Below, piece by piece: positions 20,351-21,276 of a DNA stretch of 22,313 nucleotides. The position numbers and the translations under genes were made by a program. How positions within the stretch are numbered: position 1 is the stretch's first letter; each line of letters starts with the position of its first letter. Source of the stretch: a virus; IMG/VR virus record IMGVR_UViG_3300045975_000361, positions 1 through 22,313 of that record. One strand, written 5' to 3'. The notes under the pieces were generated by a model, which was not told where the DNA came from, did not search any database, and saw only the letters and a program-made list of their open reading frames with translations.

Positions 20351-20416
20351 ACCTGCGCGCACGCCGGGGCGATGAACCGAACGCCCCGGACCGCGGATCC
20401 CGGGCCCCGCCAATGG

Positions 20417-20445
20417 ACCGGCCGAGACACCCTCGGCCGGTTTTT
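20417..20445 (+). terminator. Intrinsic terminator after the lipoprotein gene
   Basis: A perfect 10-bp stem (20417-20426 with 20432-20441) closes an ACACC loop and is followed by TTTT and C. It begins about 67 bases after the lipoprotein stop and probably ends the late transcription unit. Confidence 0.85.
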
Positions 20446-20448
20446 CTG

Positions 20449-20478
20449 TTGACACAGGGGAGCCCGGCGCGCCCTAAC
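20449..20478 (+). promoter_or_regulatory. Possible promoter of the RNA cassette
   Basis: A consensus TTGACA lies at 20449-20454, directly after the terminator T-tract. The best -10 match at a usual distance is weak (CCTAAC, 20473-20478, spacing 18). A promoter here would transcribe the tRNA-like genes up to the next terminator. The exact -35 match and the position are suggestive; the poor -10 keeps confidence low. Confidence 0.35.
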
Positions 20479-20606
20479 ACGCTTCCTTGGCCGAGTGGCC
20501 CATGCGCTTCCCCAAACGCGACACCGGGGGCGCGAAGGCCGCGGCCGTTCATTCCCGGGTCCAGAACCGCCTGGGAGGGCCCGCCGGCGCCCGCAAGCCG
20601 GCAAAC

Positions 20607-20677
20607 CGCGGGGTGGACCAGCAGCTGGTCACGGCCCTCATAAGGCCGCCACGAAGGTGCGATTCCTTCCCCCGCTA
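20607..20677 (+). tRNA. tRNA-Met (CAT), initiator-type features
   Basis: A cloverleaf can be drawn. The acceptor is CGCGGGG paired with CCCCGCT so that position 1 (C) and 72 (T) do not pair. T8 is present, and the D stem is GACC/GGTC with an A11:T24 pair. The anticodon stem is CGGCC/GGCCG with loop CTCATAA (CAT at 20639-20641). A four-base variable region and a T stem GAAGG/CCTTC follow. The unpaired 1-72 and the A11:T24 pair are hallmarks of bacterial initiator tRNA; the third hallmark, GGG:CCC in the anticodon stem, is replaced by GCC:GGC. Oddities are a seven-base D loop without the usual GG and G instead of T at position 55. CCA is not encoded. Elongator Met or Ile2 identity is possible. 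Confidence 0.7.
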
Positions 20678-20849
20678 TTCGACGGAACACGATTCTCGAC
20701 CGGGACGCTTGGCTGAACAGTTCGCCTTGCCCCGCCGGCGGATTTCGTGGCCACCGATTCGAAGGCCTTCGCCCTCTGGCCACATGGGGCGCGAGACGAG
20801 GGCCGGCGTCAGGGGCCATGATCCCCGGCCAGCGGGAGGGGATGGACAG

Positions 20850-20911
20850 CCGGCGGCGCGAGCCTTCGCGGGACGTAGCCGCCGGAGCGGGTTCGATTCC
20901 CGCCCCACCCA
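20850..20911 (+). ncRNA. Nested hairpin followed by an orphan TpsiC-like arm
   Basis: An 8-bp stem (20850-20857 with 20878-20885) encloses a smaller hairpin (20858-20861 with 20866-20869, loop GCCT). Directly after it stands a perfect T-arm-like element: GCGGG, loop TTCGATT, CCCGC (20887-20903), followed by CCCACCC and A. The 3' end looks like that of a tRNA, but no matching 5' acceptor with normal D and anticodon arms can be drawn upstream; GGGAGGG at 20834-20840 pairs except for one A/A. It may be a decayed tRNA or a tRNA-like small RNA. Confidence 0.35.
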
Positions 20912-20959
20912 TTGCCGGCACGACCCAGTGGGGCGACAGTTCCACCGGGAGGATCGGCC

Positions 20960-21033
20960 TTCCCCTTCGGCTAATTGGTATGCCAGCGGATAGCACCGGC
21001 CCGCGCGTCTGGGTTCGAATCCCAGAGGGGGAT
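20960..21033 (+). tRNA. tRNA-like gene with abnormal anticodon arm
   Basis: Most of a tRNA is present: acceptor TTCCCCT/AGGGGGA (one T/G wobble), T8, a D arm GGC/GCC with loop AATTGGTA containing the normal A14 and GG, A26, and a perfect T arm CTGGG-TTCGAAT-CCCAG. The 23 bases between A26 and the T arm do not make a standard anticodon arm. One fold gives a GCGG/CCGC stem with an oversized loop; another gives a five-pair stem with one A/C mismatch and loop AGCACCG, which would read as CAC (Val) but lacks T at position 33. The anticodon therefore cannot be assigned. CCA is not encoded. It could be a functional odd tRNA, a decoy, or a decaying gene. Confidence 0.55.
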
Positions 21034-21093
21034 TTAGAGAGAAAAACGAAGTGCCCGGGACGCGGGACGCCGCGACGAGCCCGGGGGGCCACG

Positions 21094-21131
21094 AACCGGC
21101 GCGCATTCCAGATCAGCGCGCCGGTTTTTTT
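21094..21131 (+). terminator. Intrinsic terminator closing the RNA cassette
   Basis: A perfect 10-bp stem (21095-21104 with 21116-21125) with an 11-base loop runs into seven T residues. It lies about 60 bases after the tRNA-like gene and isolates it from the promoter region that follows. Confidence 0.88.
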
Positions 21132-21154
21132 GTGAGAAAACGGAAGCCTCGACG

Positions 21155-21189
21155 TATGACGCGCTGCGTCAACCACTTACGGCGTCATA
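21155..21189 (+). promoter_or_regulatory. Operator-like repeats of TGACGC/GCGTCA
   Basis: TATGACGC (21155-21162) pairs as an inverted repeat with GCGTCA (21166-21171) across three bases, and with a second, longer copy GCGTCATA (21182-21189). Three half-sites within 35 bases upstream of a promoter are typical of a repressor or activator site that binds cooperatively. No regulator gene is adjacent; the RHH-like protein at 36-215 or a regulator outside the window could be the partner, which is inference. Confidence 0.5.
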
Positions 21190-21192
21190 GAT

Positions 21193-21246
21193 TGTGATCT
21201 ATTCACGCTTGACTATTGAGTATTGCCACAACTGTGGTAGTATAAG
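21193..21246 (+). promoter_or_regulatory. Promoter region with further inverted repeats for the small-gene operon
   Basis: This AT-rich stretch contrasts with the GC-rich surroundings. It holds GTGA-N5-TCAC (21194-21206), candidate -35 boxes TTGACT (21209-21214) and TTGAGT (21216-21221), and TAGTAT (21238-21243) 16 bases after the second one. A CCACA-AC-TGTGG palindrome (21226-21237) occupies the spacer right up to the -10 candidate, so a bound protein there would block polymerase. The first gene starts at 21277. Which hexamers are used cannot be decided from the sequence. Confidence 0.5.
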
Positions 21247-21276
21247 AGTACAACGAACGCAGCGGAGGACGACAAG

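Follow-up and report, generated by a model that had tools for sequence, protein, structure and literature searches.

The window, by which we mean the whole 22,313-base virus record (IMG/VR; GC 67%) analysed here, probably carries a functional phage-borne initiator tRNA whose elbow is held by A18-G55, with G19:C56 kept, and not by G18-pseudouridine55. It belongs to a class of tRNAs, called here the A18/G55 class, that we found on at least about 100 IMG/VR contigs and at least 115 cellular contigs. Variants of tRNA loops have been selected in vivo; the open-access literature that we searched (subscription papers and preprints were outside its scope) held no account of such an initiator class or of its elbow, and within these limits the class appears undescribed. 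A large initiator class with a coupled elbow swap offers a natural test of the roles of the elbow and of pseudouridine 55 in initiation, and A18/G55 tRNAs should not be set aside as pseudogenes by gene finders. We also suggest that many uncultured phages may bring their own start tRNA.

The tRNA gene

The tRNA-Met originally predicted in this DNA is real and its coordinates are exact: ARAGORN reports tRNA-Met(CAT) on the same strand and interval, to which the Rfam tRNA model gives 45.5 bits (gathering threshold 29, E 5.9e-7). Each letter cited in that prediction, namely the C1/T72 non-pair, A11:T24, the GCC:GGC stem, the D loop without GG and G55, is present in the layout (Table 1). The cloverleaf is the minimum-energy fold of the tRNA, with a fold z-score of -2.67, and all of its 20 helix pairs are intact, 1:72 aside, with A11:U24 and C12:G23 in the D stem. 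The variable region is CCAC (4 nt), the discriminator is A73 and no CCA is encoded. At the elbow, A18 and G55 stand in place of the G18-pseudouridine55 pair; G19 and C56 are retained.

Table 1. Coordinates of the tRNA gene, its parts and the flanking hairpins in the window
Feature	Position	Strand	Basis
Initiator-type tRNA-Met(CAU), A18/G55 class, 71 nt, without encoded CCA	20607..20677	+	ARAGORN, Rfam, covariance models
C1, unpaired with U72 (20676)	20607..20607	+	Sequence; 1:72 open in most A18/G55 class members
D loop AGCAGCT, 7 nt, A18 G19 replacing G18 G19	20620..20626	+	Layout; class consensus AGNAGYA
Anticodon arm CGGCC-CTCATAA-GGCCG; 29-31:39-41 is GCC:GGC replacing GGG:CCC	20632..20648	+	Layout; phage contigs L135-L141
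T loop TGCGATT, G55 replacing U/pseudouridine 55	20658..20664	+	Layout; loop tallies
Terminator-like hairpin and T run, upstream edge of RNA unit	20415..20443	+	Hairpin scan
Terminator-like hairpin ACCGGCGCGC...GCGCGCCGGT then T7, downstream edge of RNA unit	21095..21131	+	Read from sequence; loop exceeds the scanner's length

Initiator and elongator identity

Three covariance models were trained without the window tRNA, on A18/G55 initiators, on canonical initiators and on elongator CAU tRNAs (Met and Ile2 elongators pooled), and gave it 76.5, 59.6 and 33.7 bits, respectively; the elongator model aligned it only by deleting positions. Position-wise log-odds for the same three classes (101, 80 and 64) agree with this order. 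The initiator identity first proposed could have failed by a better elongator score, and the comparison came out the opposite way. Among the marks of bacterial initiators, the window tRNA has the open 1:72, A11:U24 (purine11:pyrimidine24), the CAU anticodon, A37 and A73; it lacks the paired 1:72 and Y11:R24 of elongator tRNA-Met and tRNA-Ile2, and it also lacks the initiator pairs GGG:CCC at 29-31:39-41. In E. coli these pairs are regarded as important for selection in the P site. They are not a strict initiator mark in our sample, since they are absent from most A18/G55 class members and are found in only 50 of the 82 canonical phage initiators. Judged from the model scores and from its two ends (see below), the window tRNA is an initiator by descent.

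Canonical tRNA-fMet shares with the window tRNA the acceptor stem and T8-G9-G10-A11, as found in U72-type initiators, together with the open 1:72, A11:U24, the CTCATAA loop and A73. It differs by G18, U55 and GGG:CCC, which are A18, G55 and GCC:GGC in the window tRNA with its 4-nt variable region. The C1xU72 non-pair is no rarity in itself: ...CCCCCGCTA also ends many phage initiators whose loops are otherwise canonical, and C1xU72 initiator tRNAs from 28 other IMG/VR contigs have the same CGCGGGGTGGA at the 5' end and the same CCCCCGCTA at the 3' end. Initiator-type tRNAs are frequent in IMG/VR, and the remark that phages often carry elongator tRNAs may stand only in a softened form. A proposed tie to the GTG and TTG starts of the window is unsupported, because the anticodon loop is an ordinary CTCATAA and many window genes are preceded by purine-rich GGAG-type sites.

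The GCC:GGC stem is rarer than these marks and recurs in a few phages, some of which also have G55 (L139-L141) and others U55 (L135-L138), and departures from GGG:CCC are common in the class and occur in cultured-phage tRNAs such as those of Aeh1 and phi-ST2. We regard this stem as a secondary feature that may reflect either the evasion of nucleases or a relaxed selection in the P site. Three of the phages mentioned (L135, L136 and L138) carry tRNA arrays in which ARAGORN reports a tRNA-Pyl(CTA), possibly an amber suppressor, along with an initiator in which GCC:GGC is combined with U55.

Evasion could also account for the whole tRNA, if its G39 (not C39) stem and its elbow resisted initiator-cutting nucleases such as VapC and it replaced a host tRNA that had been cut; we consider this rather unlikely. 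G39-type stems are recurrent in the class, and phage tRNAs with anticodon-loop changes have been predicted to evade tRNases, but phages generally avoid tRNA-fMet where VapC cuts the anticodon (PMC10264068). Moreover, the anticodon loop of the window tRNA is unchanged, and the initiators of Patescibacteria themselves have similar stems.

The A18/G55 class in phages

Using an IMG/VR pattern that fixed the CAU loop, the T loop TGCNATTC and four scattered letters of the D arm, we matched at least 119 contigs, most of them with initiator-type tRNAs that have the 7-nt D loop AGNAGYA; as a few are chance matches, we put the class at roughly 100 contigs as a minimum. The window tRNA has both features that define the class, a D loop AGNAGYN without G18G19 and a T loop TGCRATT. 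The deviations of the window tRNA had been taken for lost initiator marks; they characterise instead an initiator class that recurs. When a pattern blind to the anticodon was used, nearly all tRNA-shaped matches were again CAU, and the loops of the two exceptions (L405 and L421) differ from CAU types by one or two letters. The other tRNAs of phage loci with a G55 CAU tRNA comprise 733 with U55 vs 27 with G55. As far as these short sequences go, the A18/G55 elbow belongs mainly to initiators.

Cultured phages (Aeromonas Aeh1, Vibrio phi-ST2, Prevotella Lak-A2 and crAss-like cr116_1) also carry initiator-like tRNA-fMet genes, several with an altered anticodon stem, but all those examined keep the D-loop GG, unlike the window tRNA; none of the initiator tRNAs examined from the BLAST search against cultured phages has G55, all having U55. 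As to a single or multiple origin of the class, a tree on 58 columns, compatible with either, gave an AU p of 0.31 for one clade.

The A18/G55 class in cells

Among the cellular contigs listed, 91 are titled as Patescibacteria groups. In G002, a complete Campbellbacteria chromosome, and in the genomes G003, G004, G006 and G007, a class member is the sole initiator-pattern match, and elongator CAU tRNAs accompany it in the same loci. TruB, the pseudouridine 55 synthase, was matched in G003, G004 and G006 and, with a score below the family cut-off, in G002, and was unmatched in G007. The strict class pattern was found in 12 of 145 sampled Patescibacteria genomes, and the class is not universal across this group. 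It was also found in 2 of 149 Planctomycetota genomes, one match apparently due to chance. The other is a Planctomycetota MAG (G001) that carries a class member within an accessory array of 30 tRNAs (L326 42-3728, contig C69) and, elsewhere in the genome, a canonical initiator.

The initiators of this Patescibacteria subset (for example Campbellbacteria CP011215, L301) resemble the window tRNA in the 7-nt D loop AGNAGYN, the T loop TGCRATT and A11:U24, and in a 1:72 that is mostly unpaired, a 4-nt variable region that is common and a CCA that is mostly absent. They differ from it in having usually AGG or GGU at 29-31, where the window tRNA has GCC, and A21, where it has U21, and the GC content of their hosts is far below that of the window.

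The tRNAs nearest to that of the window are cellular (L272 at 78.9%, L364 and L280 at 77.5%), and it shares the 4-nt variable region and the lack of CCA with its cellular relatives; in most phage members this region has 5 nt and CCA is present. These likenesses would be expected if the initiator of the host were itself of the A18/G55 type and its gene had been picked up, the elbow then reflecting host ancestry and not phage adaptation. We hold such an inheritance to be a serious possibility, with somewhat less than even chances: the GC content of 67% in the window compares with a median of 42% for cellular G55 loci, no host link was found, and homologues of window proteins were absent from the fetched loci bar one weak match. 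Inheritance is compatible with initiator function; all that it disputes is why the elbow is of this type.

Coupling of the D loop and the T loop

G18G19 occurs in none of the 69 unique G55 phage tRNAs, which were chosen by their T loop, and in 77 of the 78 U55 initiators, which were drawn by acceptor sequence; the coupling was built into neither search. It was built into the genome pattern and the last viral pattern, which were excluded as evidence, though some of their loci enter the wider tally. This tally, with D loops assigned automatically, covers all unique CAU tRNAs in the fetched loci: A18G19 is present in 186 of 186 that have G55, and GG in 214 of 223 that have U55. It also covers the non-CAU tRNAs, nearly all unselected for their loops by any search: 38 of the 43 with G55 have AG (for example in L228, L196 and L326), and the 1296 with U55 divide into 1064 with GG, 24 with AG and 208 other or unclear.

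The joint occurrence of A18 and G55 is thus a general elbow covariation, non-CAU tRNAs included. Because A18 varies with G55 and G18 with U55, the natural reading is that an A18-G55 tertiary contact replaces G18-pseudouridine55, G19:C56 being retained. We lean slightly towards A18-G55 as a second natural solution to the elbow, a paired change that can arise in any isotype, is concentrated in initiators and would permit initiation without pseudouridine 55. An elongator CAU tRNA of Nealsonbacteria (L364 5032-5104) also has G55 with an AG-type D loop (AATAGCG / TGCAAGT).

Stem conservation and the neighbouring RNA pieces

Compared with the relative in L326, the window tRNA differs at 8 stem pairs, all 8 still paired and 7 of them changed on both sides, and at 5 unpaired positions. 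Across the aligned class, 98.5% of cells are paired, A11:U24 is present in 24 of 24, and 17 of the 20 pairs have double-sided changes, vs 12.5 in shuffles. We rejected a degenerate gene on account of this compensated stem variation. We read the odd letters as a shared design and not as decay, since the class is the sole initiator matched in several Patescibacteria and is common in uncultured phages.

The tRNA sits in a stretch without recognised gene (about 20351-21276) bounded by the two terminator-like hairpins of Table 1, the upstream one being weak alone because the scan found 1 in a region where chance would give 1.3. A TTGACA directly after it (20450-20455) might serve the RNA unit as a -35 box; no good -10 box was seen. 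Further downstream, a tRNA-like piece at 20834-20911 has a perfect T arm (GCGGG-TTCGATT-CCCGC) and an 8-bp GC stem (CCGGCGGC/GCCGCCGG) with no clear D arm; it scores 23.2 bits with the elongator model and 19.9 bits with the tmRNA model, and may be a relic or an unusual tRNA-like RNA. A tmRNA at 20839-20910 is ruled out by the latter score against a gathering threshold of 47, most of the model being skipped. At 20960-21033 ARAGORN reports a tRNA-Ala(AGC) whose acceptor, D and T arms are good but whose anticodon stem is mismatched (A-C, G-G), which Rfam misses even at E 10 and which is probably a damaged tRNA. Since both pieces look degenerate, the locus may be a decaying array.

These malformed neighbours are what would be expected if the window tRNA were itself the relic of an array, or else an RNA that acts outside initiation. 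A non-proteinogenic tRNA-Gly with sequence elements altered to escape EF-Tu, a change that may have its parallel in the window tRNA, is documented in Staphylococcus aureus (PMC9976931). This RNA differs from the window tRNA in its glycine isotype, its cell-wall role and its lack of initiator marks. Its GUGC T loop and missing G18G19 are presumably a further likeness. Both forms of this explanation seem to us improbable, as all stems are paired with their changes compensated, and the loops fit a class that is the sole initiator matched in some cells.

Proposed function

From known biochemistry, it is most likely that the window tRNA is charged, formylated and used as an initiator. Host MetRS would charge it through CAU and A73, and the formyltransferase would accept it by its unpaired 1:72 and purine11:pyrimidine24, the same features, above all the open 1:72, leading EF-Tu to reject it; IF2 would then bring it into the P site. 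The phage might in this way gain an initiator that is independent of pseudouridine 55 and has a non-canonical anticodon stem, and initiation might persist where host initiator is in short supply or is cleaved by a nuclease of a defence system, although we propose these last two steps with less confidence. Against initiator function stand the replacement of GGG:CCC by GCC:GGC, the absence of an encoded CCA and the degenerate neighbours.

The phage and its relatives

tRNA genes are frequent phage attachment sites, and a phage that integrates into the initiator gene of its host might carry a copy that restores it. We think it very improbable that the window tRNA is such a remnant, as no integrase was recognised among the window proteins searched and the tRNA is complete and flanked by terminator-like sites. 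No phage relatives were found by capsid and neck protein searches of IMG/VR or by tail and neck searches of INPHARED, and the gene neighbourhoods of other GC-rich lone-tRNA phages have no common theme. The capsid-like protein of the window has a distant relative (28%) in a Planctomycetota genome (L453 / G195:C181:7516-8412), which was rejected as a phage relative for want of shared neighbours and gives a weak hint of the host.
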